Virus record (IMG/VR): IMGVR_UViG_3300027759_000305
Coordinates: 1 to 29,817 of that record
DNA length: 29,817 nt
Source of the DNA: a virus
Reading direction: 5' to 3' (one strand)
Shown here: positions 2,936 through 29,817 of the stretch, piece after piece
Layout: each line of letters begins with the position of its first letter
How positions within the stretch are numbered: the stretch's first letter is position 1
Notes under the pieces: model-generated
The model's database searches: none
The model's input: the letters and a program-made list of their open reading frames with translations, nothing else
Told to the model about the DNA's origin: nothing
Position numbers and translations under genes: made by a program

Positions 2936-2957
2936 GCGTAAGAATAAATATGCCAAG

Positions 2958-11755: not shown

Positions 11756-12151
11756 TTAACCAATGTTGTATTCTTTTTTAAGAAACCTAAGACATTTTTT
11801 ATAATCTCTTCTCTCTATCCTTATTGCATCCTTCTCCATTGGGTTCTTGTCAGAAGTCAACCACTTGGCTAATATCTGATACTCATGCATAGAGTGACTA
11901 ACGTAGTGCCAATACTCATGAATAATTGTCTTAACAAGCTCTTCTACTGTATGGTGAATTTCTTTGTTTACAAATATGGTCTGATCCACTTCGTCGTAAT
12001 AGCCGTAGTCGTCCCCAGTATAATAGTCAGGCTTTCTGAACTCGAGAGCAGGATACGGTCCATTTATTTTTGATCTGCCGTATGTGAAGTAGCACCAATC
12101 CAGTATCTTCTGTGCGGTGGCTCTAGTTACATAATTCCTTTCCTTTCTCAT
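11756..12151 (-). CDS. putative zinc metalloprotease, HEYWH type (131 aa)
   Basis: H78-E79-Y-W-H82 within VKTIIHEYWHYVSHS is a zincin active-site helix. The later E106 in DKNPMEKDA is a likely third zinc ligand, as in small phage proteins with HExxH...NPxE. An acidic, Tyr-rich stretch (PDYYTGDDYGYYDEVDQ) precedes it. No signal peptide, so cytoplasmic. Starts in an ATGA overlap with the 40-aa gene. It is one of three HExxH proteins within 2.6 kb. Substrate unknown; loss of activity cannot be excluded. Confidence 0.75.
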   Translation of the reverse strand: MRKERNYVTRATAQKILDWCYFTYGRSKINGPYPALEFRKPDYYTGDDYGYYDEVDQTIFVNKEIHHTVEELVKTIIHEYWHYVSHSMHEYQILAKWLTSDKNPMEKDAIRIERRDYKKCLRFLKKEYNIG

Positions 12152-12270
12152 AATCCTAATGCTTTTCTTTCTGTCTTTGTTAAATTGGCTATGGCTTCTT
12201 TCTTAGCCTTTTCATATTTTTTAATGCGTTGCTTCTCTTTATCTTTATTTTTGGTTGATATATTTTTCAT
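12148..12270 (-). CDS. tiny highly basic protein (40 aa)
   Basis: MKNISTKNKDKEKQRIKKYE and a KAKKEAIANLTKTERKALGL tail: nearly half Lys/Arg/Glu, so a charged helix. Joined to the HEYWH protease gene by an ATGA overlap and overlapping the previous gene's end by 26 bp, an arrangement that supports a genuine coupled gene. DNA or RNA binding is possible but unproven. Confidence 0.6.
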   Translation of the reverse strand: MKNISTKNKDKEKQRIKKYEKAKKEAIANLTKTERKALGL

Positions 12271-12910
12271 ATACGACTTTATACTTATTTGATAGTTTTT
12301 CTAATTTAGTTTCAGATATCTTGAAATTGAATTCAAAGTAATCTGAATCGATACATGTGTATGCCTGAATCTCGTCATTGAATACCTTTTTAGTATAGCC
12401 CATGTCTTCTAAGTTCTTACACATTCTCTTGTATATTTTAGGATCTATATCTTTAGTGATGGCATCCACCTCTTTCTTATACTTCTTATTGATATGGTAA
12501 TATGCGTGACACAGTTCGTGTTGAAATGTGCTAGACGTCAAATCGGCTACGCCAATGATATAGGCTTTACCAGAATCTTTGTTCATTTCATATATATTCC
12601 ATATAATGCCATACATGATCTCATCGTAAGGAGTGTATGCATCGTCCAAAGTATCATAACAGTTTAAGGCTACTTCTAAAGGGAAGTTAAAGCCTACCCA
12701 ATCTGATGCGTAATTAAATCTGTCTCCGTTATTTCTGCTATACCATTCTACGTAGTCCCATATTCCAAAAGACTTGCCTCTGAATTTAGGATTAGGAGAC
12801 TCATAGAACTCTTGTACTCTCATGAACAACATTGCTCTATGATATCTATCTGGTACCACAACTGCAAACACCTTTGGTTTAATCTCTTGTATCGTGTATT
12901 GTATTTTCAT
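12245..12910 (-). CDS. putative zinc metalloprotease, HELCH type (221 aa)
   Basis: H131-E132-L-C-H135 in STFQHELCHAYYHIN is a zincin motif. E180 in VFNDEIQAYTC is the expected downstream glutamate ligand, 45 residues on. The N-terminal third has the phrase FYESPNPKFRGKSF and the middle is aromatic-rich. The ATG at 12910 is taken rather than an in-frame TTG at 12955, still giving a 32-bp overlap with the upstream gene. No signal peptide. Second of three HExxH proteins in this stretch; natural substrate unknown. Confidence 0.75.
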   Translation of the reverse strand: MKIQYTIQEIKPKVFAVVVPDRYHRAMLFMRVQEFYESPNPKFRGKSFGIWDYVEWYSRNNGDRFNYASDWVGFNFPLEVALNCYDTLDDAYTPYDEIMYGIIWNIYEMNKDSGKAYIIGVADLTSSTFQHELCHAYYHINKKYKKEVDAITKDIDPKIYKRMCKNLEDMGYTKKVFNDEIQAYTCIDSDYFEFNFKISETKLEKLSNKYKVVYEKYINQK

Positions 12911-13457
12911 CTTGTTTTGGTTTATTCCATTTACTTTTAGATAATAAGTCTGCAAAATTCTTGTAGCCCTGTTCTACAGCGTATTCGTCGTTCAGCTTAT
13001 CTCGATATGCTTTAACATTCGCCTTGTCTCTCATTGCCTCTGCATTCTCGAAGCCTAAATCTATAGCGCAAGCTTCTTCGCACCAATCATGAGATCCTAT
13101 GTTTATGCTTATAGGTAGATCTGTCTCTATAGACTCTATGAAATCTTCGAACTGATTAGCGGATACGAACGGCATACAATAAGATCCTTCTGCTATTTGA
13201 TATCCACTCTCGTTTTGCTTGTCGAATATCTCTACTCTACCCATTCTATATCTTTCTCCCAATAAACTGAATATGCCGTAACCAACCGTAGAATAGTAGT
13301 AACGACCTGGGTGGGATACACCGTCTATGTCTATGCATTCAGGATTCGTTTCCATCCACGTGGCTAGCTTATCTATTAATTGCTCGTCGGTTAGTTCTTC
13401 GTTCTTAGCTCTGATATTCTGTAGATACCACGCTACACGTTTTCTATTTATCTTCAT
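12879..13457 (-). CDS. hypothetical protein (192 aa)
   Basis: Mixed alpha/beta protein, acidic, with the phrases CIDIDGVSHPGRYYYSTVGY and NIGSHDWCEEACAIDLGF. Four cysteines are spread without CxxC pairing. No known domain. Lies between two protease-like genes (32-bp overlap downstream, 4-nt gap upstream), so a shared process with them is possible. Confidence 0.7.
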   Translation of the reverse strand: MKINRKRVAWYLQNIRAKNEELTDEQLIDKLATWMETNPECIDIDGVSHPGRYYYSTVGYGIFSLLGERYRMGRVEIFDKQNESGYQIAEGSYCMPFVSANQFEDFIESIETDLPISINIGSHDWCEEACAIDLGFENAEAMRDKANVKAYRDKLNDEYAVEQGYKNFADLLSKSKWNKPKQDENTIHDTRD

Positions 13458-13699: not shown

Positions 13700-14305
13700 T
13701 TATATATTTTCTTGTTTAAATAGTTTTTCAAATCTCTTTGGTAACTTATCGTACTTGCCTCTGAATGTGTTTGGCATGGCGGCAATAATGTTCTTGTTCC
13801 TGTAAGGTAAGTTATTAGGACTGCTCCACTTTCTAGTCTTTCTCATCCAATGGTAAAAATACAAATAAGCATTCGCTTTCTTTATGTAGCTTTCTTTATC
13901 AATACTCAAGTTGTATTTACTTATCAACTTAACTGCTCTCTTCTCATTGTCTAATTCTAGATCTATTACGCCTTGTATTGCGGCATCTACCATAGAACTA
14001 GAGAACTTCTCACCTGATATCCAAGCATCTACAGCGAACAGATACTTATTTGCTTTCATATAAACTGGTATCTTATTTATCCATTGCGTAAGGTGACTGT
14101 ATTCGTGTACTAATATTTCAAACGAATCTTTCTGTTTCATTGCGACTTGCAACGTTTTACCTTCGTCATCAAAATATCCAGTGCATCTTACAGATGGAAT
14201 TGGTTTTAAGTACTTAACTTCTTTAAGCTTACACGATATCTTGTGTTTCTTACAACCATTTTTTACTATCTCAATAAATGTCTTATCGTTTTTGCTTAGT
14301 CTCAT
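13700..14305 (-). CDS. putative zinc metalloprotease, HEYSH type (201 aa)
   Basis: H67-E68-Y-S-H71 in FEILVHEYSHLTQWI is a zincin helix. About 45 residues later, DLELDNEKRAVKLI supplies E117 or E121 as the third ligand, matching the HE-x-SH ... ELD-x-E-K-R arrangement seen in small phage and plasmid proteins. The last 50 residues are basic (RKTRKWSSPNNL, KYDKLPKRFEKLF). No signal peptide. Third HExxH protein of the group. Function unknown, possibly processing of phage proteins or cutting of host ones. Confidence 0.75.
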   Translation of the reverse strand: MRLSKNDKTFIEIVKNGCKKHKISCKLKEVKYLKPIPSVRCTGYFDDEGKTLQVAMKQKDSFEILVHEYSHLTQWINKIPVYMKANKYLFAVDAWISGEKFSSSMVDAAIQGVIDLELDNEKRAVKLISKYNLSIDKESYIKKANAYLYFYHWMRKTRKWSSPNNLPYRNKNIIAAMPNTFRGKYDKLPKRFEKLFKQENI

Positions 14306-17137: not shown

Positions 17138-17818
17138 TTACTTGTAGTCTATAATATCGTCTACGTTTAGATTGCCTTTATCGTCGTAACCTATTCTTTC
17201 TAAGTGTTCCAAATAAAATGGATCCAAATCGTAGAACTTCGTATTGTTCTCTTCTAATACCTCTTCGTCGTGTATGTACTTAGACTCTATGTTTCTTGTT
17301 ATGCGATCGCTGAATGGATCCACTGCAAATAAGAAGCTACAGTTATAACACAACCATCTTAAGTTCTCTAATCTCCAATCTGATTTGTTACCATTAGAGA
17401 AGTTAATCAATAGTGGCACCTTCATATCTAATATGCGTTTCTCTTTGAATCCACACTCAGCGCAACAATAACCTAATCTACCATCTTTCATCAATAGATC
17501 TTTAAGCTTAGCCACTCTCTGAGGATTTGCTACTTGTTTTTCTACGAGCATCTCTTCCAAGTCTTTCTTAAAGTTACTGCCTTGAAAATTCTTTGGTATA
17601 CCTTTAGCAGATTGATTCATGTGAAAATCAAACAAGGTTTTGCCAGTATCCCTATCTATGTATTTCTTTGCGTATTTCTTATACGTAACGTATGTGATCT
17701 TCATCCATCTTGCAGCTTCGTGATTGCTACGCGTATTCTTCATTGCCTCCCATATCTGATCTTCTGTGATCTGAAGACCTTGATATATAAATTGAGGTTT
17801 ATCTTTATTCTCTTCCAC
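17138..17818 (-). CDS. HNH-fold zinc-finger protein lacking catalytic histidines (226 aa)
   Basis: The N-terminus has a helix-turn-helix-like part (ITEDQIWEAMKNTRSNHEAA, ARWMKITYVTYKKYAKKY). Residues about 115-170 carry the HNH/zinc ribbon scaffold: CCAECGF, then NGNKSDWRLENLRWLCYNCS. In active HNH nucleases of this layout, an LDHIxGD block and a CPNCH end supply catalytic and metal histidines; here they read LINFSNGN and CYNCS, so both histidines are gone while zinc cysteines and the LENLR...C..C core remain. Probably a DNA-binding protein derived from a homing-type nuclease. Start overlaps the upstream stop by one base. Confidence 0.75.
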   Translation of the reverse strand: MEENKDKPQFIYQGLQITEDQIWEAMKNTRSNHEAARWMKITYVTYKKYAKKYIDRDTGKTLFDFHMNQSAKGIPKNFQGSNFKKDLEEMLVEKQVANPQRVAKLKDLLMKDGRLGYCCAECGFKEKRILDMKVPLLINFSNGNKSDWRLENLRWLCYNCSFLFAVDPFSDRITRNIESKYIHDEEVLEENNTKFYDLDPFYLEHLERIGYDDKGNLNVDDIIDYK

Positions 17819-18225
17819 TAATCCTGAATTTTGGGATTAATCATTACTAATAAATTCCAAAGATCGTAAGGATTTTCTAGTATTATTTCGGTATCATTTT
17901 CGTCCAATATGGGATTTAGAGTTCCGTCTGGATTTTGTCTATCGTAAAGATAGAATGCTATTACGTCTGAACAAGCTTCACCGAAGTGAAAATATAACAT
18001 CACATCTATAACCGCTAAAAACTTCTCGTCGTACTTAAACATATCCATATCCATATCTGCGTACATCAAGCCTTGTCTCACAAATATCTCGTCCAAACTA
18101 TTTATCATTTGTACGAACATCTCTTTCTTCTTATCAGATTGAGTCTTCTTCTTTCTTCTTACATATGATTTAACATTCAGCATGTTATCCACCGCAGTTT
18201 GCACCTCTTTGAAATTGTCTGCCAT
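17818..18225 (-). CDS. conserved phage protein (135 aa)
   Basis: MADNFKEVQTAVDNMLNVKS, a basic RRKKKTQSDKKK patch, then YLYDRQNPDGTLNPILDEND and NPYDLWNLL. The C-terminal part is a pattern I recall from T4-like and Bacteroidetes phage genomes, without a named function. ATG at 18225 is taken over a TTG at 18255 that would overlap the previous gene. Part of the four-gene group 17138-18920. Confidence 0.7.
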   Translation of the reverse strand: MADNFKEVQTAVDNMLNVKSYVRRKKKTQSDKKKEMFVQMINSLDEIFVRQGLMYADMDMDMFKYDEKFLAVIDVMLYFHFGEACSDVIAFYLYDRQNPDGTLNPILDENDTEIILENPYDLWNLLVMINPKIQD

Positions 18226-18226
18226 A

Positions 18227-18577
18227 TTAATTTGTTTTATCTGTGTGAGTAACAATCTTATTAACCTTCTTAGATCTAATTGATTCTATAAGTTTTGTCA
18301 TTTTGTTACATGCCTCGTAATCCTCTTCTTCTACGTAAAATAATATGCACGTTTCAAGTGCGAATATCCACTGGTTCTTATGCAGTTCTATGTATGAATT
18401 TGAATCGTTTATCTCAAAAATAGAAGCAAAGGTCTTCTTATTTTCTATGGCGTACTCTATCGCCTTTGGTACTTCGACCTTAAGAAGACCTTTTAATATG
18501 TTGGATGCTTCTATATCTTGCGCCGTCAACGTACCGATGTTTTCAAATATGGCTCGAGGCGGTCTATTTTTTCCCAT
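18227..18577 (-). CDS. hypothetical protein (116 aa)
   Basis: Helical protein beginning MGKNRPPRAIFENIGTLTAQ, with FALETCILFYVEEEDYEACN in the second half and a basic tail. The opening PPR and compact helical make-up suggest a partner protein of the neighbouring genes; function not known. Gap of 1 nt to the next gene. Confidence 0.65.
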   Translation of the reverse strand: MGKNRPPRAIFENIGTLTAQDIEASNILKGLLKVEVPKAIEYAIENKKTFASIFEINDSNSYIELHKNQWIFALETCILFYVEEEDYEACNKMTKLIESIRSKKVNKIVTHTDKTN

Positions 18578-18593
18578 AACTAGTTTTAATATT

Positions 18594-18920
18594 TTATTCT
18601 CCGCCTTTGAATGTCTTCATTAGCATGTCGGAGATCGATGTCAATGGTATGGTGAATCCTATAACATTTTGATATGCATTTCTATCGTCGTAAGCAATGG
18701 TAATACCTGCATCTCCCATTCTTTTTTGTAAAGCAACAGATATCTTATTTGCCAATTCCTGCTTGGCTCTTGGATCTTGAATCTCTTGACTCAATATGAA
18801 TTGCATCTTGATACCCATCTTTGTGGTGTTATCGTTTACATCGAACTGTATTTGAAATGGCATCTTTTTGCCATCTATTGTCAAAGTTACAGGGTATTTA
18901 GGTTGTTGTGAAAGGGCCAT
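18594..18920 (-). CDS. probable structural phage protein (108 aa)
   Basis: Begins ALSQQPKYPVTLTIDGKKMP, a beta-rich start, and carries NDNTTKMGIKMQFILSQEIQ followed by helices with DAGITIAYDDRN. It resembles small proteins encoded beside structural genes in marine T4-like phages, but I cannot name a family. First of the four-gene group after the glycan block. Confidence 0.6.
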   Translation of the reverse strand: MALSQQPKYPVTLTIDGKKMPFQIQFDVNDNTTKMGIKMQFILSQEIQDPRAKQELANKISVALQKRMGDAGITIAYDDRNAYQNVIGFTIPLTSISDMLMKTFKGGE

Positions 18921-18941: not shown

Positions 18942-20117
18942 TTAGAATACGTTCTTGATGAATGTACCCATCATTTTGTCTGTGTGGTCTACCATTTGTA
19001 ACACATCGATCTTAAGTCCGTTGTATTCGTACGTACCTACTGCATCTACCGATTCTCTAATGATAACCTGTATATTTGGAACTATGTTTAGATCTACGTT
19101 ATCTTTTGCGTCAAAGTAGATAAGTATATCGTTCTGCTTTGGCTCTTCTATTGGACGCACCCTAGCTTCAAGGATTAGGTCTGTCTTAGGCTGTTCATAT
19201 TTTATATAGTCAGCAATTAAAGCCTGATCTACGTATATGTTATTGAACCATGGCTCTAACGAGAGTAGCAGGTTAGCATCGCAATTCTCCACGACTATTC
19301 CTATATCGTACCTCGGTTTTAATACTGGTCTTTGGTACTTGTCGTTCTCAATCCAACTACCCCATTTTCTAAGATAGTTTCTTGCTGCTTTTGCTGATGC
19401 GTTCTTAAAGTAGTCATCGTCCTTACCAATCTCTTCTGTCCATCTGTGTCCTCTACAAGTTAAGTGATATACGAATGCATCTCTTGACTGGATTAGTTCG
19501 TATCCGTGTAGTAACCATCTTTGAAATATATCTGAATCTTCGTAAGGGAATGGAGCAAACAATGCGTCGTGTCCTCCCATTGCAACGAAGTCTTCTTTGT
19601 ATATAATCCACGGTGCAAACATACCGTTAGTTGTTAAGTCTTTATACTCGTGTTGAGCTTCTAAAACGTATGCTTCAAATGCATTTAAGTTTAGGTTGTC
19701 GAAGTCAGTACCAAAATCTCTAATGATCTTCTCTTCTCCAGCTGGGTGCAATGGCGGTTCTACTCTTGTTGCGCACACTACAGTTTCTCTTTGTAAGTGC
19801 TTTAACATGTTCTCTAAGTAATAAGGACCTAATATCATATCTGCGTGCATGATACCTACCACTTCTGTTTCTGCTAATTGAATTCCTTTATCGTATAGTA
19901 TTGTATGACCAACCCTTTTATCTGATCTATATACTGCAGTGATATTATCGTCGTTAATTCCAGCCAACCATTCTGTGGTACCATCCGTAGAGCCATCGTC
20001 TAACATAATGATCTTACAATTAGGCGCGTGAGTCTTTACGCTTGTATATGCATTCTTTAAGTGTCTTAGATTATTACTAGATGGTATGACTAACGTAACT
20101 TGTTCTTGTGTTAACAT
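18942..20117 (-). CDS. glycosyltransferase family 2, copy A
   Basis: GT-A inverting glycosyltransferase. VTLVIPSSNNLRHLKNA opens the fold, IIMLDDGSTDGTTEW (about 37-50) binds the nucleotide and H91-A-D93 in GIMHADMILGP is the DxD-equivalent metal site. Residues beyond about 240 form a separate C-terminal part without a known domain. It shares the phrases HADMILGP, VCATR-x-EPPLHPAG and VYHLTCRG with the next gene (20111-21247), so the two arose by tandem duplication. They overlap by 7 bp. Sugar and acceptor are unknown. It ends the glycan block on this side. Confidence 0.88.
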   Translation of the reverse strand: MLTQEQVTLVIPSSNNLRHLKNAYTSVKTHAPNCKIIMLDDGSTDGTTEWLAGINDDNITAVYRSDKRVGHTILYDKGIQLAETEVVGIMHADMILGPYYLENMLKHLQRETVVCATRVEPPLHPAGEEKIIRDFGTDFDNLNLNAFEAYVLEAQHEYKDLTTNGMFAPWIIYKEDFVAMGGHDALFAPFPYEDSDIFQRWLLHGYELIQSRDAFVYHLTCRGHRWTEEIGKDDDYFKNASAKAARNYLRKWGSWIENDKYQRPVLKPRYDIGIVVENCDANLLLSLEPWFNNIYVDQALIADYIKYEQPKTDLILEARVRPIEEPKQNDILIYFDAKDNVDLNIVPNIQVIIRESVDAVGTYEYNGLKIDVLQMVDHTDKMMGTFIKNVF

Positions 20118-21247
20118 AATTTTAATTTAGGTTGACTTTCTTTTTTCTCTCTTACAATTAATTTGAATATTTGTAACTCGTATTGCCCAGGTTCCTCAAC
20201 TTCGTTAGTGATTAACTCTGGTAGGTTATGCAGAATATAATTAAAAAGTTCTTGATTATTAAGAATATCTTTGTAGTCTGCTTCTAAAATCATATCTGTA
20301 GTTAACTTGCTAACAAACTTAGCGGCTATATCGAAAGATGAAATGTCTTTATTCTTATTGATGTAGTTAGTAGGATCTGCTTCGCATTGTATCTGATCGA
20401 AGAATGGTTCTACTCCAAGTACACCGTCATTAAAACAATTTAATATTTTTAATCCTACATTGTATTTGATATTCGGTATAGGTTCTAATGTATCAGTTTG
20501 TTTTAAAAATCCGCCCCATTTTCTAATGTATTCATTAGCAGATATTTGATTGTTCTTCTGCCAACTTTCGTCCTTCTTACTAAAGTCTTCCATTTTTTCT
20601 GCGTGTGCAAACTGTCCGCCTCTACATGTTAAATGATACACCATTGCGGACCATGATTGAATCAAATCGTAACCATGTAGTTTGAATCTTCTAAATAAAT
20701 CCGCGTCTTCGAATACCGATAAGAATATAGGATCGTGTCCTAAGTGTTGGTCTTTTCTAATTAACCATGGAGCGAAGATGCTTTTAGTTATCTTATCGCT
20801 TTTGTTAGCTTCAACGAACTTGTTAAACTCTTCTATCTTCAAATCTTCTGGCCACATACCAAAATCCTGTACTATCTTCTCTATTCCTGCTGGATGTAGT
20901 GGTGGTTCTATACGAGTGGCGCACACGATGTTGTCCTTTGTTTTAATATCCATCATGTGTTTATCTGCATGAGGACCAAGAATCATATCAGCGTGAAATG
21001 CTATTACATATTCTCTATCAGCCCATTGAAACATGCTATCGTAAGCGAAACCAATTCCTCTTGGAGTATCTTCGTGGTTTTGAATAAACTTAATACCATT
21101 CTCTCTCAACCATTCTACAGTTCCATCTGTGTCTTGATCTACGTACACAATGATTTGATTCGGGTAATAAGAATTATCTTGAATAGATTTGATACATGGT
21201 TTTAAGTATCTTAAGTTATTTTTCGAAGGGATGCAAAATGAAATCAT
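20111..21247 (-). CDS. glycosyltransferase family 2, copy B
   Basis: Same family and layout as its neighbour: MISFCIPSKNNLRYLKPCIK, then VYVDQDTDGTVEWL for nucleotide binding, then FHADMILGPHADKHM and VCATRIEPPLHPAGIEK. In copy A the uridine loop reads DDGSTDGT, here DQDTDGT, so one acidic residue is replaced by Gln. Length 378 aa. The C-terminal third has diverged more than the catalytic part. Overlaps the GT17 gene end by 4 bp (21244-21247). Probably adds another sugar to the same glycan. Confidence 0.88.
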   Translation of the reverse strand: MISFCIPSKNNLRYLKPCIKSIQDNSYYPNQIIVYVDQDTDGTVEWLRENGIKFIQNHEDTPRGIGFAYDSMFQWADREYVIAFHADMILGPHADKHMMDIKTKDNIVCATRIEPPLHPAGIEKIVQDFGMWPEDLKIEEFNKFVEANKSDKITKSIFAPWLIRKDQHLGHDPIFLSVFEDADLFRRFKLHGYDLIQSWSAMVYHLTCRGGQFAHAEKMEDFSKKDESWQKNNQISANEYIRKWGGFLKQTDTLEPIPNIKYNVGLKILNCFNDGVLGVEPFFDQIQCEADPTNYINKNKDISSFDIAAKFVSKLTTDMILEADYKDILNNQELFNYILHNLPELITNEVEEPGQYELQIFKLIVREKKESQPKLKLC

Positions 21248-22107
21248 CTAAAAAATTGTTTATACTTTTGTTTGTTATCTAGTAAATACTTTGGTAATTG
21301 AGATTCGTCCAACCAAAATTTAAAATTGGTTCTGCCTAAAACGTCTTGACCGTTTGCTAGTAAATCTTTGACTTTATCCTTAACAGAATCGTTGTTATAC
21401 TCTTGGTGGCCGTAAGCTTCTAATTTCATCTTAACTTGTTTCTCTCCTCCCATAAATGTAAAGTGCCAACCTGCATTGTTAACGTACTCGTACTTAGTTT
21501 TTGATGGAGTTCTAAGATGGTTTAAACAAGCTCCATCTATATTTGTATATCTCGTTAATAATGTACCGGCCCAATCTTCTGAAGATCTTATGTTCATGTA
21601 ACCTGAGTATGCTAGTTGTTTTAACTTGTATATCTTATCTTTTTCTATTTGCGTATAGTCTAACTCTGGATTCCATATCTCGTCTAAATCTGTAACAAAT
21701 ATTAGATCGTCGTTCTCTGCTCCAGCATTTTCTATAGCAAATCTTATAGTTTCTTTTTGATAGAATTCTTTTAGCCAGTGTAATTCTCCTTTAGGCACAT
21801 TAGAACTAGTTAAAGCTTGTATACAAACTTGCTTAACATCTTTATCTATATTAGGATTCGTTATTCTTTGTTGTAAATCGTCGAATGATTTTGGTGGATC
21901 ATAAGTTACATGATGGTATATTTTATGTAAATACTTTGAGAACCTCTCTTTGTTATTCATGAAGTGCAATGGCTTCTGTTTACCTGAGAAAGTCTCTACG
22001 CATTCTATCAATACAAATTGATCTACGTAAGGATCTAACATCTCTAATCTTAGTTCTAATAAATCCAATTCATTAAAGAATGTAAACACATCAAATACTC
22101 TAGCCAT
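21244..22107 (-). CDS. glycosyltransferase family 17
   Basis: ARVFDVFTFFNELDLLELRL, then ECVETFSGKQKPLHF, is the diagnostic start of GT17 (the family of MGAT3, beta-1,4-N-acetylglucosaminyltransferase). The metal site is T138-D139-L-D141-E142 in IFVTDLDEIW. Also seen are NAGWHFTFMGG and the closing LPKYLL region usual for the family. 287 aa from ATG 22107; a TTG at 22137 would add 10 residues but overlap the upstream gene by 38 bp. Acts on glycan chains in the cytoplasm; acceptor not known. Confidence 0.88.
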   Translation of the reverse strand: MARVFDVFTFFNELDLLELRLEMLDPYVDQFVLIECVETFSGKQKPLHFMNNKERFSKYLHKIYHHVTYDPPKSFDDLQQRITNPNIDKDVKQVCIQALTSSNVPKGELHWLKEFYQKETIRFAIENAGAENDDLIFVTDLDEIWNPELDYTQIEKDKIYKLKQLAYSGYMNIRSSEDWAGTLLTRYTNIDGACLNHLRTPSKTKYEYVNNAGWHFTFMGGEKQVKMKLEAYGHQEYNNDSVKDKVKDLLANGQDVLGRTNFKFWLDESQLPKYLLDNKQKYKQFFR

Positions 22108-23005
22108 ATATCTTGCTTTCTTTTTTATATAATTCAAATTCTCTAGCTACATCTGTATAAGATTGTAATTGACCTTGTCTATCCATGTATGTAAACTTAC
22201 GAGATATATTATAACCGCAACTCCAATATCCATCAGATACGTTGTGTCTACACCAATACTTTGGTGCTATAATTAGATGAGCATCACTACAAAATGCTGG
22301 AAAATAAGCAAAGCTTGAATTTGATATAATTAACCATTTTGCATTCTTAACAATAGAATAGTCTTTAGCCAAATCAAAGTGGTATACGTTGTCTGCCAAC
22401 TCAGGTAATAATCTCTTTGCCATATCAGGGTTCTCCGTGATCACTAGGAATTGCATGTTCGGGTTTAAACTAAGCATGTGATAGATTGCTTTAACCCAAT
22501 AATCTCTTGATAAGAATAGAGTAGAATCTGCTTCGTAGTCTCTGATATTCAATACGCATATATCATCGTGACTATAATCTAAGCAATCAAATTCTGGTTT
22601 TACTTTCAACCAATCTTTAATCTCCTCTCTATAATCCCAAAAATAATTTTCGCCTTGCATAATACCCATAATTTTAGTATGGTTTTTAACATTCAATAAG
22701 TCTTGATCGATCAATCTTATATCACAACCCAATGTGGCGTCATGATCTGAATGGTTAAACTTTGCTCTTGTTTCTTTTTCTGTGTACACAGTGGGTGCAA
22801 TTGGAAAACCTGGCTCTTCCACTAAAGTTCCTAAATCGATATCCATGAAGTATACGCCTTTATCGTTGTATCTTCTGTCTCCAAAGTTTTCTAATCCAGT
22901 ATAACCAAACGCATAATCATTTCTCTTGGCAATAGCTCGAGTAGTTACATAGACTGCAAGTTGGTTACCAAAACCTTGACCATACATGAATTCTGTGTAT
23001 ATCAT
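22100..23005 (-). CDS. GT11-like (fucosyltransferase-fold) glycosyltransferase
   Basis: The N-terminal GQGFGNQLA (9-17) corresponds to the G-x-LGNQ motif of alpha-1,2-fucosyltransferases. The late LIISNSSFAYFPAFCSD corresponds to their SNSSFSWWGA motif. The central H-x-R-x-GDY motif is less clear: CVLNIRDYEAD may be a diverged version. 301 aa. It overlaps the GT17 gene by 8 bp and lies 1 nt after the epimerase. A GDP-sugar donor is suggested by family but not shown. Compare the clearer GT11 at 25923-26759. Confidence 0.75.
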   Translation of the reverse strand: MIYTEFMYGQGFGNQLAVYVTTRAIAKRNDYAFGYTGLENFGDRRYNDKGVYFMDIDLGTLVEEPGFPIAPTVYTEKETRAKFNHSDHDATLGCDIRLIDQDLLNVKNHTKIMGIMQGENYFWDYREEIKDWLKVKPEFDCLDYSHDDICVLNIRDYEADSTLFLSRDYWVKAIYHMLSLNPNMQFLVITENPDMAKRLLPELADNVYHFDLAKDYSIVKNAKWLIISNSSFAYFPAFCSDAHLIIAPKYWCRHNVSDGYWSCGYNISRKFTYMDRQGQLQSYTDVAREFELYKKESKIYG

Positions 23006-23006
23006 A

Positions 23007-24002
23007 TTATTTTTTCCAGAATGAATAAATGCCTTTGTCTAATTCGTATGAAGGCCAAACGAATCTCTCTCTATTTGGTTGACGTTGAGCCCATAACCAC
23101 ATATCATATAATCCCTCTTCTAATGTAGTCTTGTGTTTAAAACCAAGAATGTCTTCCGATTTCTGGTATGTAGGAATAGAATGCTTTACTTCGTGTCTTC
23201 CTTCTTTGTATTCATACTCAGCTCCGTATTTAATGATGTCTCTTAACACTTTATTAGCATCGTTGATACTCCACTCTTCTACTCCACCTAAATTGATAAT
23301 CTCTTTAGATGCTCTTGGTTCTATAGCAGAATTCCATAGCGGTTCAACTATATCGTCGATACAACTGAATGCTCTTGTTTGTGTACCATCTCCGAAGATT
23401 GTCATTGGTTCTGCATTCATCTGTTGATACATCCAAATACCCAACACATTACGATATTTGTCCCATATATTTTGCTTACGACCGTATACATTGTGAGGTC
23501 TAATGATACACCAATCTAAACCGTGTTGTTCGCCTGCAATTTGAATGTCCATCTCGCAAGCATACTTAGCCACACCGTATGGATCTATTGGCTTAGGCAC
23601 TTGTGTTTCATCGAATATGCCGCCGTAACCATGACCATATACAGCTAACGTAGAAGTAAATATCAATCTCTTCACATCGTACTTAATACAATTATTTACC
23701 ACTCTTGCTGTTGCTACTAAGTTGTTATCGTAGTTGTACCTTCTAATGAATGGGCTTAAACCTTCTGCTGCGTAAGCTGCGAAGTGGAATACGTAGTCAA
23801 ATTCGTTGGTAGCAAAACAATTCTCAATAGGATGTTCTACTAGATTCATCTGCCAGAATTTAACCTTTGGGTTTACATTCTCTAAATAGCCTCCTGATAA
23901 ATCGTCGATACCTACTACCTCTACTTCTGGTTTATTTTCTATTATCCAATCTGCAAGTCTTGAACCTAATAGACCTGCAACTCCTGTTATTAGTACCTTC
24001 AT
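23007..24002 (-). CDS. NAD-dependent sugar epimerase/dehydratase (SDR)
   Basis: Extended-SDR enzyme acting on nucleotide sugars. G7-x-x-G10-x-x-G13 (ITGVAGLLGSR) and D34 in GIDDLSGG define an NAD-type Rossmann fold. S117/T118 and the Y142-G-V-A-K146 pair form the catalytic triad. The Pro-rich DETQVPKPIDPYGVAK approach and C-terminal substrate part resemble UDP-glucose 4-epimerase-type enzymes. 331 aa, normal length. The substrate cannot be named with certainty. Followed 1 nt later by the GT11-like gene. Confidence 0.88.
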   Translation of the reverse strand: MKVLITGVAGLLGSRLADWIIENKPEVEVVGIDDLSGGYLENVNPKVKFWQMNLVEHPIENCFATNEFDYVFHFAAYAAEGLSPFIRRYNYDNNLVATARVVNNCIKYDVKRLIFTSTLAVYGHGYGGIFDETQVPKPIDPYGVAKYACEMDIQIAGEQHGLDWCIIRPHNVYGRKQNIWDKYRNVLGIWMYQQMNAEPMTIFGDGTQTRAFSCIDDIVEPLWNSAIEPRASKEIINLGGVEEWSINDANKVLRDIIKYGAEYEYKEGRHEVKHSIPTYQKSEDILGFKHKTTLEEGLYDMWLWAQRQPNRERFVWPSYELDKGIYSFWKK

Positions 24003-24003
24003 A

Positions 24004-24579
24004 TTATTTAATTATTACAGACCATGAACTGTCTGGATATGTATACAATTCGTTGATCAATCCTTCTTCGTGTAAAATAGTGTAGATGTGTGGTAGATAG
24101 AAATCATGTCCGCATAAAATACCGTTAACTTTAATCTTATTCTTCCACGCATTAATATCAGATCTAACACTAATTGGATCGTGTTCAGCATCTACATATA
24201 CTGCGTCTAATGTTCTGTCTTCAAATTCTTTTGCTGCGTCAACACTAGACTTTCTAACTTTGATAATGTTTTTAATATCTAATGTACGTTCTAAGAATAT
24301 CTTTTCTGCGTCTACAAACAATTGGTCATGAGAAGGAATTCTACCCGATTCAGGTACAACATAATCGTAACAATCAATACTGTATACTTTCTCAACATGC
24401 ATTGCGAATAACATTGTTGAAACTCCTTGAAATGATCCAATTTCTGCCATCACAAACTCGGGTTTAAAGTAGTGTTGTATTAATTCGTGTAAACCTCTTA
24501 CGCTATTGTGAGGTTCTAATGCAGCGTGACCCATTCTTGGGATGTTAAATAGCTCTTCTAATCTTTGTTCGTTGTTCAT
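24004..24579 (-). CDS. class I SAM-dependent methyltransferase
   Basis: E46-I-G48-S-F-x-G52 (VMAEIGSFQGVSTMLFA) is the SAM-binding motif I, SIDCYD (67-72) is motif II and DAVYVDAEHDP holds the motif IV acid. The order and spacing fit the methyltransferase 24 group, whose members methylate sugars or small acceptors. 191 aa, compact. Inside this gene block, O-methylation of a sugar on the growing glycan is the likely role, an inference from context. Confidence 0.85.
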   Translation of the reverse strand: MNNEQRLEELFNIPRMGHAALEPHNSVRGLHELIQHYFKPEFVMAEIGSFQGVSTMLFAMHVEKVYSIDCYDYVVPESGRIPSHDQLFVDAEKIFLERTLDIKNIIKVRKSSVDAAKEFEDRTLDAVYVDAEHDPISVRSDINAWKNKIKVNGILCGHDFYLPHIYTILHEEGLINELYTYPDSSWSVIIK

Positions 24580-25235
24580 TATAAACTTTTTTGTGTTACT
24601 TGATAATAATAATTGTTTCTACCATGAAATCCAAATGGTATGTTTCCGTAGTTCTCGGCTACCATAGTTTCATGACTGAACTCGGCTGCCACTTCTATTG
24701 GAGCAAACTTACATCCTTCTGATTCATAAGTTTTTCTATGGTGACAGCAAAAGAATCCATCTTCATGATAGAATCCATAATACTGTTTCCATTCCAAATC
24801 TAAATCATTTGCCACGCATAATAGCTTTTTACTTCTTAGTGTGAATCCTCCATTTCCCATTCTTTGTATGTTTCCATCTTGATCTCTAAAAGAGAAGTCA
24901 TCTTGAGGATACGGCCACAATGCGCCTATATAATCGTATTGCATCCAATCTTCTTGCCACATGTCTGGATTAACTACATATCCATCGTTCTGTACTAATA
25001 GACAGTGCGTGGTGTTAATATACTCGTGTAGTCTATAAACTATAAAGTGATTGTATTGTTCGTAGTTTAGTGGTTCGCACTTAATGATCTCTACTTGGTC
25101 GTCTTGTATATCTTCTGGAGTAATTAGGATCGCACGGTCAAACTCTAACTCTCTCATAGAGTACTTGATAGCCTTAAGAGTTTCAATAGCTTTAGTGCCT
25201 GCTACAGCAGCAATGGTAACGTTATTTAGTTTCAT
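24579..25235 (-). CDS. DUF5672 family protein, probable glycosyltransferase
   Basis: Recognised by the ordered phrases CLLVQNDGYVVNPDMW, YDYIGALWPYP, GNGGFTLRSKK, YGFYHEDGFFCC and the end PFGFHGRN, which define DUF5672. The ND-G and HEDGFF positions are acidic/aromatic sites like those of GT-A enzymes, so sugar transfer is likely, though not demonstrated for the family. 218 aa. Overlaps its upstream gene by 14 bp and the methyltransferase by one base. Confidence 0.85.
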   Translation of the reverse strand: MKLNNVTIAAVAGTKAIETLKAIKYSMRELEFDRAILITPEDIQDDQVEIIKCEPLNYEQYNHFIVYRLHEYINTTHCLLVQNDGYVVNPDMWQEDWMQYDYIGALWPYPQDDFSFRDQDGNIQRMGNGGFTLRSKKLLCVANDLDLEWKQYYGFYHEDGFFCCHHRKTYESEGCKFAPIEVAAEFSHETMVAENYGNIPFGFHGRNNYYYQVTQKSL

Positions 25236-25938
25236 ATCTTCTTATTACTCGTGATATCTCTTCTTGCTTTTGTTTTTCTGTTATTAAGTTAGTGGCTCTA
25301 ACCTCTGTATTTCTATTCACAGCACACACCATATCAATTACGACAGGATCTCCGTATAACATGTGTAATCTCTTATAGTATTCTACATCCACTAACCAAT
25401 TCAAAGTTTCATCAAATTTTGGTTTCGTATATTCGTTTCTAATTGTTAGTACAGACGGACAACTTATGGTATTAATTCCCGCATATATACGATCATGATA
25501 GTGCGGTGTCATTCTGTCGTACATAGTTACGCAATCATCAGTGTGTACGCATGCAGTGATAAACCAGTCTTTGTCTTGATTCTCAATTATACTATCATAT
25601 ATAATCTGAAGTGAATCTGTATCATATAAGAAATCGTCTTGAAATAACATCTTGATAAATAGACCGCTTGAATGTTCAATGGCGTTATTCATATTAGGGG
25701 CTATCTTGCCTCTACCATGAGAGTTTCTTATGTACTTAATATTCATCATTGAACTCCAAGAGTTACATAAGTTCTCTATGTCATTATCTTCGCTATGATC
25801 TGATATCACTACTTCGTAATCTGTAAAGCTCTGCTGCGCTATTATGTTAAATGAGTGTTCTAAGTATTCAGCTCCTTTGCCTTTAATTCCCCACGTGGGT
25901 ATGGCAATGCTAAAGAAAGGTATTACGCTTTTATCCAT
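25222..25938 (-). CDS. glycosyltransferase family 2, third member
   Basis: FFSIAIPTWGIKGKGAEYLE starts the GT-A fold. VVISDHSEDNDIE (about 44-56) is the nucleotide loop and MLFQDDFLYD (97-106) has the D101-D102 metal site. Sequence phrases differ clearly from the tandem pair at 18942-21247, so it is not part of that duplication. ATG at 25938 is chosen over GTG at 25995. Overlaps the fucosyltransferase gene by 16 bp. 238 aa. Confidence 0.85.
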   Translation of the reverse strand: MDKSVIPFFSIAIPTWGIKGKGAEYLEHSFNIIAQQSFTDYEVVISDHSEDNDIENLCNSWSSMMNIKYIRNSHGRGKIAPNMNNAIEHSSGLFIKMLFQDDFLYDTDSLQIIYDSIIENQDKDWFITACVHTDDCVTMYDRMTPHYHDRIYAGINTISCPSVLTIRNEYTKPKFDETLNWLVDVEYYKRLHMLYGDPVVIDMVCAVNRNTEVRATNLITEKQKQEEISRVIRRYETK

Positions 25939-26759
25939 GATTGAGGGTATAAATCTTTTGTATCGTGAACTCCATTGTATGCAGGTCCGAACCACTTCTT
26001 TGGAGCTACAACTCTTTTATCAGGGTTTTGATTTAACCATGCGCCCCACCAACTAAAACTACTATTGGCTATTACGTTATGGTGGCACATACTCATCATA
26101 CACATGTCTACATCAGGTTCATTTCCTTCCATATAAACAATGTTCTCTTGATCTCCAAATAATTCTTTGGCATATTCTATATCGTCAGAGAATACTAAGA
26201 AGCAATAGTTACCATCCATAAAATAGGTCATAGCATTGAAGTAATAGTCTGCGTCCATTACTGGATGGAATTGTTGAAGTCCTGCATAATCTCCCTTTCT
26301 TAAATGTACAGACACAAATTCTAATTGCATAGGAAAGGTTGGAAATGCAGACTCTGCTTTCTTTTTTGTTTCTGAATTAAACTCAAAGAATTCTCGTATT
26401 GTTTCGCTACAGTGTTCAAAGTACTTCTCTGTCTGAAAGTAACCCATTAAATTGGTTTGATCTGGTACTCTAAATAGATCTTGACAGAAATGAAAGTATG
26501 GTTCTTGCGCTACGTGTAATGTTTGTATTTCAGATTGTGGTTTCAGTGTTAACTTAACATTATCGAAGTACTTTGGTAAATCAAAATAAACCTCTCGCCT
26601 AACTCCGTCTTTGAAATGCTCTACGCTTGGCACATCTACATTCTCTTTTGGAAATGCTACATCATGTCCAGTTTTATTAGCTACACCTACAGTGGAAGCA
26701 AACTGAAACATTTGATTGCCTAACCTTCCAAAATGTCCTATCTTATTATAACTTATCAT
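25923..26759 (-). CDS. alpha-1,2-fucosyltransferase-like (GT11)
   Basis: All three GT11 signatures are intact: GRLGNQMFQFA (11-21), SVHLRKGDY (150-158, the H-x-R-x-G-D-Y motif that binds the GDP-sugar) and IANSSFSWWGAWL (230-242). 278 aa is the typical length. The enzyme should transfer a 6-deoxyhexose, normally L-fucose from GDP-fucose, to an acceptor sugar. The partial GDP-fucose-synthase-like gene at 29525-29817 in the same block would match that donor. Overlaps the SDR gene by 4 bp. Confidence 0.92.
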   Translation of the reverse strand: MISYNKIGHFGRLGNQMFQFASTVGVANKTGHDVAFPKENVDVPSVEHFKDGVRREVYFDLPKYFDNVKLTLKPQSEIQTLHVAQEPYFHFCQDLFRVPDQTNLMGYFQTEKYFEHCSETIREFFEFNSETKKKAESAFPTFPMQLEFVSVHLRKGDYAGLQQFHPVMDADYYFNAMTYFMDGNYCFLVFSDDIEYAKELFGDQENIVYMEGNEPDVDMCMMSMCHHNVIANSSFSWWGAWLNQNPDKRVVAPKKWFGPAYNGVHDTKDLYPQSWIKA

Positions 26760-27571
26760 ATCATTTGTTTAACTGCTTCGTAAACTCCTATAGAAGGGAA
26801 AAATCCTAATGATCCTAATTTGCTTGAGTCCAAATACATGGACTCTACTTGTACTATCTTATGAAAGTCTGACGCTTCCATAGTTCCTATATTACTGTTA
26901 GATCCTATTTCTTGTTTAGCGTAAGCGATAATATCTTTGAATAGCGTTGGCTTTCTTGCAGATCCTAAATTGTATATCTCCCCGCTTTCTCCACGATCCA
27001 TAACAAACTTAATACCATCAACTACATCGTCAACGTGTACGAAGTCTCTATAGAATTCTCCATTGTTATACAAGTTAATGTCTCTACCCGCCTTCAATTC
27101 GTCTATTAAAAATTGTAATGCGTTCTTTTTCTTTGAAACTTTGCCGTCTCCTTTGCCTATTACATTTCCAAGTCTTACGATCTTGTATTTAATATTAAAT
27201 GTCTTGCAGTAAGATTCTATTAATTGTTCTGCTGCTAATTTAGTTATAGAATAGAATCCCTTTGGTTTACATGGAGAAGTCTCTCTAGCTGGTAGGTGGG
27301 TATCACCGTAAACAAACCAAGAACTAACGAATGTAAACTCTATATCTTTTCCTTTACAGTTCTCCAATACTTTCATTAGATGCGTTAGATTTGTTTCTAT
27401 GTCTATGAAAGGATTCTCTAACACGTTGTAGTTATCTACTGTACTAATTAGGTATAGTACTCTATTAGATTTAGGTTGTAATTCATCTCTTGATATTAAG
27501 ACTGAATTTTCTTTATGTTTGTTATAGAATTTTGACCCTATAAATCCTGTTCCTCCGAATATCGATATCAT
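26756..27571 (-). CDS. NAD(P)-dependent sugar reductase/epimerase (SDR)
   Basis: G6-G7-x-G9-x-x-G12 (IFGGTGFIGSK) opens an extended SDR. S83/S84 precede the Y107-S-I-T-K111 catalytic pair. 271 aa is shorter than typical 4-epimerases. Directly downstream of the RfbH gene and joined to it by one base, it is a good candidate for the reductase that follows the 3-dehydration, as RfbJ/RfbS follow RfbH in dideoxyhexose pathways. That pairing is inference from position. The core is complete and no key residue is missing. Confidence 0.85.
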   Translation of the reverse strand: MISIFGGTGFIGSKFYNKHKENSVLISRDELQPKSNRVLYLISTVDNYNVLENPFIDIETNLTHLMKVLENCKGKDIEFTFVSSWFVYGDTHLPARETSPCKPKGFYSITKLAAEQLIESYCKTFNIKYKIVRLGNVIGKGDGKVSKKKNALQFLIDELKAGRDINLYNNGEFYRDFVHVDDVVDGIKFVMDRGESGEIYNLGSARKPTLFKDIIAYAKQEIGSNSNIGTMEASDFHKIVQVESMYLDSSKLGSLGFFPSIGVYEAVKQMI

Positions 27572-28857
27572 TATTTAAACTTTTTTACTACTTGTTCAAT
27601 GTATGCAAACACTTGTTCTGTGTAATGAGGTGCAGCGCCTATAAAAAATACTTTGTCTAATACTTTATTTGCTTCAGGATAATTTTTATAGTCATCCAAG
27701 AATGAATAGCCTGGATGCATTAAAATATTTCCAGCAAAATAGTTTCTTGTTTGTATTTTATTCTCTTCTAAGAATGCAACCAATCTGTGTTTCAATCCAT
27801 CTTCATCGCATATAAATGGAGTGCCAAACCAACAAGGATCTGCTAACTCTAATTTAGATGGTGATCTTAAATTTGGAATGTTATCTGTAAAGATCTTTGT
27901 CAATCTCGCTTTAGCCGATCTTCTCTTTGCTTCCATTTCGTCTAGCTTAATTAACTGTTCCAATCCAATTGCGCCTTGTAAATCCAACGGTTTTAAGTTG
28001 TAACCCATTTGAGAGAACACATACTTGTGATCGATAACTCCATCGTAGTTGTCTAACCACTTGTCAAATCTATTACCGCACGTACCGCAAGGCAATAAGT
28101 TAGCAGATCCTATGCAATAGCAATCTCTACCCCACCAACTAATACTTACGAATAGTTTCTTCAACTCATCGTCGTTAGTACAAATCATACCGCCTTCTCC
28201 AGTTGATATGTGATGCGCAGGATAAAATGAATTAGAGAACGCAACGTAATATTCACTTAAAAATTTACCATTCCATTTAGATCCTAAGCTATCGCAATTA
28301 TCTCCAATCAATTTTAAATTATACTTCTCAGCCATTGCAACCAATCTATCCATATCTGGAGGGTTACCCAATACTGGTGATATGAATATACCTCTTGTTT
28401 TATCTGTTATCTTGGCTTCTACTTGATCTAAGTCAAAGTTAAGTGTATCCCATTCTATATCAACGAATACAGGTTTCAATCTGTGTTGGTACAATACTGA
28501 TACTGTTGTAGCGAATCCAACTGGAGACACAATGATTTCGTCATCGTCTGCCCAATTGAATCTCTTCTTTAGTGCAGCGATCAATACCAAGTTAGCAGAG
28601 CTACCTGAATTTACCATGTGCGAGTGCTTAACGTTGAATCTCTTACTAAATTGGTTTTCAAACTTATAAACCTTTTCACCGGTAGTAATCCACTTACCAT
28701 TTAAGAAACTTTCTATTGCTGCTTCGGTCTCTTTATTATCCCAATAAGGACCAGAGTAGTAGATTGGTGTTTTGCCTGGCGTGAAGTTCTTTGCATTGTA
28801 AATGTAAGGAGCTACGTGGTTACCAACTAACTCTTGTATATTTTCTAGTTTAATCAT
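27571..28857 (-). CDS. rfbH: RfbH-type 3-dehydratase (PLP, [2Fe-2S])
   Basis: DegT/DnrJ/EryC1 superfamily with the traits of CDP-4-keto-6-deoxyglucose 3-dehydrase (E1, RfbH) rather than an aminotransferase. In SFYPAHHISTGEGG, H215 stands where aminotransferases have the PLP lysine. Iron-sulfur cysteines are C188 (GDNCDS), C246 and C248 (RDCYC) and C260 (GTCGNRF). C188-x57-C246-x-C248 matches the published E1 spacing as I recall it; the last gap is longer (x11). An extra C257 lies nearby. It removes the sugar 3-OH on the way to 3,6-dideoxyhexoses. 428 aa from ATG 28857 (a TTG at 28905 is rejected), with ATGA overlap to the upstream gene. Confidence 0.92.
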   Translation of the reverse strand: MIKLENIQELVGNHVAPYIYNAKNFTPGKTPIYYSGPYWDNKETEAAIESFLNGKWITTGEKVYKFENQFSKRFNVKHSHMVNSGSSANLVLIAALKKRFNWADDDEIIVSPVGFATTVSVLYQHRLKPVFVDIEWDTLNFDLDQVEAKITDKTRGIFISPVLGNPPDMDRLVAMAEKYNLKLIGDNCDSLGSKWNGKFLSEYYVAFSNSFYPAHHISTGEGGMICTNDDELKKLFVSISWWGRDCYCIGSANLLPCGTCGNRFDKWLDNYDGVIDHKYVFSQMGYNLKPLDLQGAIGLEQLIKLDEMEAKRRSAKARLTKIFTDNIPNLRSPSKLELADPCWFGTPFICDEDGLKHRLVAFLEENKIQTRNYFAGNILMHPGYSFLDDYKNYPEANKVLDKVFFIGAAPHYTEQVFAYIEQVVKKFK

Positions 28858-29525
28858 TTTATGTTTGGGTTGAATATGTAACATTCTAATCTTTCTATCA
28901 TCCAAGGAGAACTTTCATCTTCCACTAAAAAGTCGACTACTTTTTTATAGAATTCTTTAGATCTTAATTGAGCATGTTCTTTGGTAATTCCGAAATGTCC
29001 ACCAGGCATGAATTCATATTCAGCAGGTTTTTCATCAGTAAATAATAAATCCCAGTATTTGTCTACGTTTATATTTGGATTAGAATCTTGAGGATATCCG
29101 TTGCTTTGACAAACTAATACATTGCCGTCTCCGTGTTGTTTAGATGGACTCAATGCCCACATACAACCTCCTAATGGTGAAGGAACAGTTATTGTATTGA
29201 AATGAAATCCGTAATAGCCTCCTATTTTTAATTGATGCCTAAGATTTTCAGTGCCATTATTTACAACTTCTACAATATTTTCCCAATGATCGAAAGGCCA
29301 ATCTTGACCAAAGAAAGTAATGTCAGATAAATTGTCGTAGTTAGTGTATATGTGATTAAAGAAAGTGTGTACGCATCTGCCCTTATTAGGTTCTAATTTA
29401 ATCTCGTCTTCTCTTTGTTTTGCTTCTTCTCCTTTTCTATAAACAGTAACTTTAATATCTGAATTGAATTTGTCTAACCAATCCAAGTATTTGTCGTACG
29501 CTGCTATTACTATTTCTCTTGTCAT
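28854..29525 (-). CDS. DUF3431 family protein, glycan-related
   Basis: REIVIAAYDKYLDWLDKF, then VHTFFNHIYTNYDNLSDITF with FFGQDWPFDHW, is the DUF3431 signature. A second block has GGHFGITKEHAQLRSKEFY. The family is found beside glycosyltransferases in bacteria, fungi and viruses; a sugar-transfer role is presumed but not shown. 223 aa. ATGA overlap with the RfbH gene and 1-nt overlap with the following SDR fragment support one operon. Confidence 0.85.
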   Translation of the reverse strand: MTREIVIAAYDKYLDWLDKFNSDIKVTVYRKGEEAKQREDEIKLEPNKGRCVHTFFNHIYTNYDNLSDITFFGQDWPFDHWENIVEVVNNGTENLRHQLKIGGYYGFHFNTITVPSPLGGCMWALSPSKQHGDGNVLVCQSNGYPQDSNPNINVDKYWDLLFTDEKPAEYEFMPGGHFGITKEHAQLRSKEFYKKVVDFLVEDESSPWMIERLECYIFNPNIK

Positions 29526-29817
29526 TATTTTCTAACTTTTGGATAATTTAATATAAACCATTCTATTGATTCTTTTAAACCTTTCTCCAAAGTGGTGAAT
29601 TCATATTCTCCAATGATACTCAAAAGTTTGGCATTAGACGATGGTTTTCTATGTTGACCATTTGGCTTGTCTGTCAACCACTTTACTTTGCCCTTGAAGT
29701 CCATGTGCTCCACAATTAGGTCTACTACTTGCTTAATAGAATACTCAGTTGGATTTGATATGATCACTGGTTCAGTCCCTGTGTATTTCTGGATAAGTAG
29801 ATCCACTATGTTTGCTA
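29525..29817 (-). CDS. GDP-L-fucose-synthase-like SDR, C-terminal part only
   Basis: The frame runs off the right edge; the ORF has no ATG inside the window, and GTG at 29806 is internal to the phrase ANIVDLLIQKYTG. The visible 97 codons match the substrate-binding end of GDP-fucose synthase/WcaG-type reductases: VIISNPTEYSIKQVVDLI, then KPNGQHRKPSSNAKL and EFTTLEKGLKESIEWF. If complete, it would make GDP-L-fucose, the donor for the GT11 enzymes downstream. The other half and any Gmd partner would lie beyond the window. Confidence 0.8.
   Translation of the reverse strand, partial: ANIVDLLIQKYTGTEPVIISNPTEYSIKQVVDLIVEHMDFKGKVKWLTDKPNGQHRKPSSNAKLLSIIGEYEFTTLEKGLKESIEWFILNYPKVRK

Follow-up and report, generated by a model that had tools for sequence, protein, structure and literature searches.

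Phage glycan clusters are mostly known from cyanophages and are usually explained as modifiers of the host lipopolysaccharide (LPS). The large polymorphic clusters of cyanophages are read as O-antigen modification (PMC7824862), and the cyanophage S-SCSM1 possesses Gmd, Fcl and fucosyltransferases (PMC9602691). Chlorovirus PBCV-1 encodes its own GDP-fucose pathway together with transferases, some of which occur in most relatives while others are restricted (PMC4691112). Transferases of the mycobacteriophages Che8, Corndog and Myrna decorate virion proteins, as cited in PMC12363180 and PMC11256854, and PMC12619734 lists four transferase families among the core genes of a large-phage lineage with predicted Bacteroidota hosts. 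Here we describe a glycan gene block that occupies the last 10.9 kb (positions 18942-29817) of an IMG/VR virus record of 29817 bases (IMGVR_UViG_3300027759_000305), the whole of which is called the window in the following. The best explanation of the block is that it belongs to a glycan locus passed on vertically in a lineage of T4-like phages, which includes the Flavobacterium phage immuto, the Microcystis phage Mel-JY01 and the Rhodothermus phage RM378.

The block comprises 13 open reading frames (ORFs), every one on the minus strand, with small overlaps and almost no gaps. Pfam matches were counted only when above the curated cut-off and gave three GT2 proteins, two Epimerase-type SDR proteins and one each of GT17, GT11, Methyltransf_24, DUF5672, DegT and DUF3431. 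Including phage families, 12 of the 13 genes match glycan enzymes, the last one being the cut-off end of a GDP-fucose synthase gene. The Pfam and PHROG matches agree with the gene families named in a sequence-only reading of the same DNA, and its description of a continuous, phage-encoded glycan block adjoining ordinary small phage genes was borne out by the gene layout and by collinear phage relatives (see below). The P-SSM2-type and S-SCSM1 LPS-like clusters are likewise big blocks with epimerases and several transferase families that are polymorphic between relatives; they differ in that the accessible text describes no slot with conserved edges and a replaced middle, and their host-LPS role was itself deduced (PMC7824862, PMC9602691). 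PBCV-1 differs in being a eukaryotic nucleocytoplasmic large DNA virus for which a capsid-protein glycan is proven (PMC4691112), while in the present case it is predicted. For the mycobacteriophages one or a few transferases are described, and the accessible parts of PMC12363180 and PMC11256854 describe no comparable multi-gene sugar-nucleotide cluster.

Searching phage records with the flank at the DNA level returned no match, and the search was therefore done with proteins. In addition, relatives were fetched from IMG/VR and compared with the window by blastn. A 65 kb contig (G007) matched window positions 5806-29817 without interruption at 86%, i.e. through the boundary at 18.9 kb, and two further contigs, G005 (174 kb) and G004 (46 kb), were collinear with the window in long pieces, mostly at 75-91%. 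The phage gene next to the block, u108 (108 amino acids (aa), 18594-18920), was found in nine further viral contigs, and six of these are also in the list of RfbH carriers. The independent contigs collinear across the boundary and the recurrence of u108 rule out a chimeric assembly join, one of the refutations that had been proposed for the block. G005 possesses T4-like genes for terminase, gp23-type capsid, portal, sheath and tail tube as well as GroEL, which are most similar to those of immuto (terminase 55%, gp23-type capsid 53%, sheath 47% identity); of the hallmark genes of T4-like tailed phages (terminase, capsid, sheath), which are seen in G005, the window itself holds none. An earlier suggested flavobacterial link is in agreement with these data, since the nearest cultured relative of a collinear contig is a Flavobacterium phage, and a Bacteroidota host is tentatively suggested for the window phage. 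Further genes, some of them glycosyltransferase-looking, follow the tail genes of G005 (107411-112367), and a second sugar set may exist there.

In the relatives the block continues for about 6 kb past the window edge. A full Fcl (~300 aa, 211 bits to NF047922) is followed by Gmd (GDP-mannose 4,6-dehydratase; 389 bits to TIGR01472 against a cut-off of 415, and 328 bits to the PDB Gmd), a 203-aa GT2 transferase (GT2_203), the gene u148, GT430 and GT480 (GT4-like transferases named after their approximate length in aa), an RHH-like gene of 72 aa and a nuclease resembling RecB. This far edge, from nuclease to GT2_203, lies beyond the window's own end and was seen in the collinear contigs G004, G005, G007 and c28392_1365. 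The near edge is present in the window: the transferase GT2a (18942-20117, minus strand, 391 aa; PF00535, E 1.2e-17) adjoins a conserved flank (17138-18920, minus strand) of an HNH-type gene (17138-17818), u145, u116 and u108, which keeps the same order in the relatives and, more distantly, in immuto; GT2a with flanking u108, u135/145 and HNH genes defines the near edge of this immuto-type slot. The entire glycan locus measures 9-19 kb, and the block makes up one of its ends. The gene u148 (L104:12750-13196) encodes 148 aa with paired Cys motifs, has no Pfam or PHROG match and stands between the edge transferases in all surveyed loci. GIY-YIG-like ORFs, i.e. homing-endonuclease-type insertions, occur at the edge of and inside the G005 island (L101:2507-3172, L101:11331-11978) and are absent from the window.

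The same slot is found in cultured phages. In the complete 160 kb genome of Flavobacterium phage vB_FspM_immuto (NC_055915) a glycan island (gp169-gp181) sits in the same place. One edge holds a PD-(D/E)XK nuclease, a small gene, GT480 (gp181, 62-63%), GT430 (gp180, 55-57%), u148 (40-43%) and GT2_203 (49-50%), and the other end holds GT2a (gp169, 40%), small genes and HNH in the order of the window lineage. The middle differs: it contains two DegT-type proteins, a hexapeptide transferase, a methyltransferase and unknowns, and it has no orthologues of the E1-type RfbH, GT17, GT11 and DUF5672. Mel-JY01 possesses the nuclease, GT480 (as two ORFs), GT430 (43%), GT2_203 (41%) and other genes, with a distant GT2 at the opposite end, and RM378 has kept GT480 (25%) and GT2_203 (27%). 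Named GT480 matches comprised only immuto, Mel-JY01, a huge phage and RM378; the same phages top the terminase list, as expected of a vertically inherited gene. In 297 Bacteroidota genomes GT480 was not found at E 1e-30. Judged by sequence comparison, GT480 belongs to the phage lineage. The literature searched contained no primary paper on the cluster of immuto or of Mel-JY01.

To compare edges and interiors we used the 11 complete islands (9.3-19.4 kb) that were readable among the fetched loci. All 11 contained the edge genes (GT480, GT430, u148 and GT2_203, with GT2a at the opposite end), and their middle genes were of at least four types. A GT480 scan was based on the best 80 of 397 matching stretches, such that close relatives are over-represented, some loci are near-duplicates and some contigs are shared with the other set. 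Here the order GT480-GT430-u148-GT2_203 occurred in all 46 loci with at least 4.5 kb downstream, the genes after it varied widely, and the RHH gene lay upstream in 79 of the 80. The GT480 of c21091_412 is 76% identical to that of G007, yet this contig has none of the type-A interior genes of G007. For c3375_020 GT480 is at 64% and HNH at 38%, but RfbH (83%), DUF5672 (83%) and GT11b (84%) are far closer. Likewise, 23 of 74 pairs with GT480 at 75-80% identity have no first interior genes in common, while 11 pairs at 60-65% have all of them in common. Edges and interior do not agree in their similarity. Among phages that are otherwise alike, single genes are replaced as well: G007 shares GT17 and GT11b at 47% and 64% identity with G005 but at 100% and 97% with G004. 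The methyltransferase of the window (24004-24579, minus strand; Methyltransf_24, PF13578, E 4.5e-13) is swapped for a different one in G004 and G005. This behaviour may be likened to the cassette exchange in bacterial O-antigen loci. We found no description of such a conserved-edge slot in the literature searched, which does not cover most subscription journals.

The remaining genes, all on the minus strand, allow to predict the sugars involved. The RfbH-type protein (27571-28905; PF01041 (DegT), E 2e-71) is probably an E1-type NDP-4-keto-6-deoxyhexose 3-dehydratase. In a phmmer comparison it matched the E1 structure 3bcx over residues 22-443 (E 1e-75), i.e. with full-length homology. Its FYPAHHI motif aligns to E1 His220, where His replaces the Lys that binds pyridoxal phosphate, and its DNCD, RDCYC and GTC motifs align to E1 C193, C251, C253 and C261, which we take to be the ligands of the [2Fe-2S] cluster. 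All these positions are invariant in the phage alignment, and an E1-like 3-dehydration is the likely reaction type. The score of 362 bits does not reach the NCBI equivalog cut-off of NF011936 (423); we therefore use the label RfbH-type, with substrate and nucleotide carrier not assured. The adjoining SDR271 (26756-27571; PF01370, E 4e-34), found next to RfbH in every type-A island, is a candidate reductase of the dideoxy-sugar route. A second SDR protein, SDR331 (23007-24002; PF01370, E 8e-40; phrog_540), is a predicted nucleotide-sugar epimerase/dehydratase that is GalE-like and scores under the equivalog cut-offs.

At the window end, the C-terminal part of Fcl (GDP-L-fucose synthase; 29525-29815) is cut off and the fragment matches NF047922 with E 3e-8. 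Together, Gmd, Fcl and two GT11-type genes would form a coherent fucose route. These are the fucosyltransferase-type GT11a (25923-26759; PF01531, E 2.9e-24; phrog_2644, E 5e-75) and GT11b (22100-23005), which matches the phage glycosyltransferase family phrog_2644 (E 8e-11) and no Pfam family. The other transferases are GT2b (20111-21247, 378 aa; PF00535, E 2.6e-13), a paralogue of GT2a (36% identity) that belongs to the type-A interior, GT2c (25222-25995; PF00535, E 1.4e-8) and a GT17-family protein (21244-22137; PF04724, E 1.5e-27), whose start overlaps the neighbouring gene and may truly lie further inside. AlphaFold2 models were compared with known folds by Foldseek for two proteins. DUF5672 (24579-25235; PF18922, E 3.7e-22; pLDDT 72) is predicted to have a GT-A fold (E 2e-5, TM 0.57 to GT-A enzymes), and DUF3431 (28854-29525; PF11913, E 6e-14; pLDDT 84) is weakly predicted to be a GT-A transferase (GT6-type, E 3e-4, TM 0.34). 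No credible relative of DUF5672 or GT11a emerged when their sequences were searched against the PDB.

According to the sequence-only reading, the mix of GT17, RfbH and GT11 is not known from phages. This part of it did not hold, since homologues of these genes and of DUF5672 already occur together in the Synechococcus phages S-B43 and S-H68 (Kyanoviridae) and in the uncultured 642 kb phage LR756502; by sequence, the gene mix of the window is not unique. One cluster of S-B43/S-H68 contains RfbH (58%), SDR271 (41%, S-H68), GT11a (39%), DUF5672 (37%), GT2c (31%), GT11b (29%) and GT17 (28%). It differs in gene order, has no match to the GT480 edge, and in S-B43 lies directly after tail-fibre genes. 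More widely, RfbH (58%) and GT17 are both present in S-B43, S-B05, S-H68, RN05-S and RB11-B. LR756502 shows the order of the window (RfbH 65%, GT2c 50%, DUF5672 40%, GT11b 33%, GT17 35%) but with other genes between and around these and without a GT480 edge match at E 1e-20. In a tree, the window RfbH groups with that of the 642 kb phage in a supported clade of phages, and the nearest well-placed bacterial sequences are cyanobacterial. The S-B43 RfbH is placed elsewhere, among bacterial sequences, and the sequences suggest that RfbH was acquired by phages more than once. Bacterial relatives of the family reach 54-64%. A contig of 3.7 kb assigned to an Actinomycetes bin (L121) encodes an RfbH that is placed beside the phage clade; this may be a phage contig in a metagenome-assembled genome.

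We furthermore looked for the membrane proteins of a polysaccharide export route, with hydrophobic segments taken from a simple hydropathy scan. No island protein contained such a segment, the sole one being in the flanking u108 of G005. Proteins with more than 4 segments were absent from G005 (174 kb) and from the 150 of 160 kb of immuto that were scanned, and 80 phage RfbH loci (1.3 Mb) contained no protein with at least 6 segments. Among the bacterial RfbH loci, such a protein is present in 10 of 16. The Wzx flippase family PF01943 and the family of initiating phosphoglycosyl transferases (PGT) PF02397 gave no match in six phage records, with positive controls. WecA-type initiation was not searched by family, and no polytopic protein of such size appeared in the G005 and immuto scan. 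With flippase, initiating transferase and polytopic proteins not found, a complete O-antigen operon was rejected. In these records the phages thus have no export route of their own for a lipid-linked glycan, such that they either glycosylate something cytoplasmic or borrow the route of the host.

The sequence-only reading had named both a rebuilt host O-antigen and a coated virion as possible outcomes. Since genes for membrane proteins, a flippase and an initiating transferase were not found, the virion would be the likelier of the two. We propose, with about even confidence, that the locus is a soluble cytoplasmic glycan assembly line which most likely decorates virion proteins, with conserved core genes and exchangeable genes for outer sugars. 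In the infected cell, Gmd and Fcl would turn GDP-mannose into GDP-L-fucose. The RfbH-type enzyme would 3-deoxygenate an NDP-4-keto-6-deoxy sugar, and SDR271 would probably reduce its product to a 3,6-dideoxyhexose. Soluble transferases would then build a methylated oligosaccharide in the cytoplasm, for which the edge transferases (the two GT4-like ones, GT2_203 and GT2a) would make a core common to these phages and the exchanged middle genes would supply type-specific outer sugars. The acceptor would most likely be phage structural proteins before assembly, giving one glycan type per phage; a phage-borne acceptor is suggested because phages whose hosts belong to different phyla have the same edge genes. 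A precedent exists in mycobacteriophages, whose capsid and tail-tube proteins are glycosylated (PMC11256854, PMC12363180). Seen this way, a phage lineage spanning several host phyla may keep an ancestral set of virion core-glycan genes and swap sugar cassettes, which would result in serotype-like coats or "glycotypes", one of them with L-fucose and a 3,6-dideoxyhexose; we put this forward tentatively and with less confidence than virion decoration as such. A lectin-like Laminin_G_3 protein (1862-2956, minus strand) contains a long Ser/Thr/Pro repeat (75% S/T/P over 40 residues) and is a distant relative of gp051 of immuto, which carries the annotation structural protein; repeats of this kind are present in proteins of G004, G005 and G007. 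Such repeats are possible O-glycan acceptor sites, which we regard as a lead only.

Several points weigh against decoration of the virion. The glycan, its acceptor and the protein-linking transferase that it would need are all hypothetical, and in the 174 kb relative G005 the locus lies away from the virion genes. Two type-A islands (c11336_437 and c35666_2029) have no Gmd and Fcl between the edges, yet keep both GT11 genes. The gene maps of the islands showed neither an E3 reductase nor genes of the CDP-glucose pathway (whole genomes were not searched), such that either the host or Gmd would have to provide the RfbH substrate. The loci surveyed were chosen as best matches, with close relatives over-represented and some near-duplicates among them. 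Decoration of DNA is a further possibility, as immuto, G007 and G015 possess a thymidylate-synthase-like gene. Solubility is also common among O-antigen transferases, and the host's own flippase could be supplied by them.

The latter point leads to the main rival, modification of the host surface, which we consider a possible but doubtful alternative. Here the phage enzymes would add sugars to lipid-linked O-antigen or capsule units of the host, a host flippase would export them, and superinfection or recognition by grazers or phages would be blocked during a long infection. Comparable cyanophage clusters are read in this way in PMC7824862 and PMC9602691; Gmd, Fcl, RfbH, GT2 and GT4 are O-antigen-type classes, RfbH has bacterial relatives, and variable interiors would suit varying host glycans too. 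However, no flippase, polymerase, exporter, initiating PGT or polytopic protein was found in the tested phage records, which would entail total reliance on host machinery, and the edge genes persist across phages whose hosts span different phyla.

Hypermodification of DNA, in which some or all transferases would attach sugars to modified bases in the phage DNA and so protect it from nucleases of the host, appears improbable. Transferases that act in this way are known from T4 and other phages. Virus-encoded enzymes that add diverse glycans to DNA are also cited in PMC12619734. The thymidylate-synthase-like gene is missing from Mel-JY01 and from G005, which may be incomplete. To our knowledge, the number and variety of the genes, including Gmd/Fcl and RfbH, go far beyond the known DNA sugar systems. 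A Tet_JBP search gave no match anywhere and is uninformative since the controls were silent too. The thymidylate-synthase-like gene of G007 (L103:10390-11028; PF00303) is short and could be of the pyrimidine hydroxymethylase type; another one was noted in G015. Finally, an ordinary bacterial polysaccharide operon that was joined by assembly, or fresh cargo without a phage role, is extremely improbable despite the O-antigen-like gene classes and the 54-64% bacterial RfbH relatives, given the collinear independent contigs, the phage RfbH clade, the conserved phage edge genes and the isolated phage immuto with the same slot; the conserved slot itself rules out fresh cargo.

Elsewhere in the window, a lone glycosyltransferase-like gene with weak GT2/Anp1-type matches lies far from the block (5128-5790, minus strand). 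Three small proteins with the HExxH-like motifs HEYWH, HELCH and HEYSH, perhaps zinc metalloproteases, are encoded within 2.6 kb (11756-12151, 12245-12955 and 13700-14305, minus strand). A 71-aa ORF (1199-1414, minus strand) combines a twin-arginine-like start (NRRDFLKSS) with a tail-fibre-like NVGIG stretch at its end, which is odd for a phage. Rfam and tRNA scans of the window gave no matches.

A locus with conserved edges and an exchangeable middle in a T4-like lineage with cultured members on Flavobacterium, Rhodothermus and Microcystis is suggestive of a core glycan that these phages have in common and of outer sugars that vary. Since a cultured carrier exists (immuto on Flavobacterium sp. 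LMO8), the question of virion coat versus host remodelling is directly approachable. Related phages of this lineage probably wear different sugar coats or, less likely, alter the surface of their hosts in different ways.

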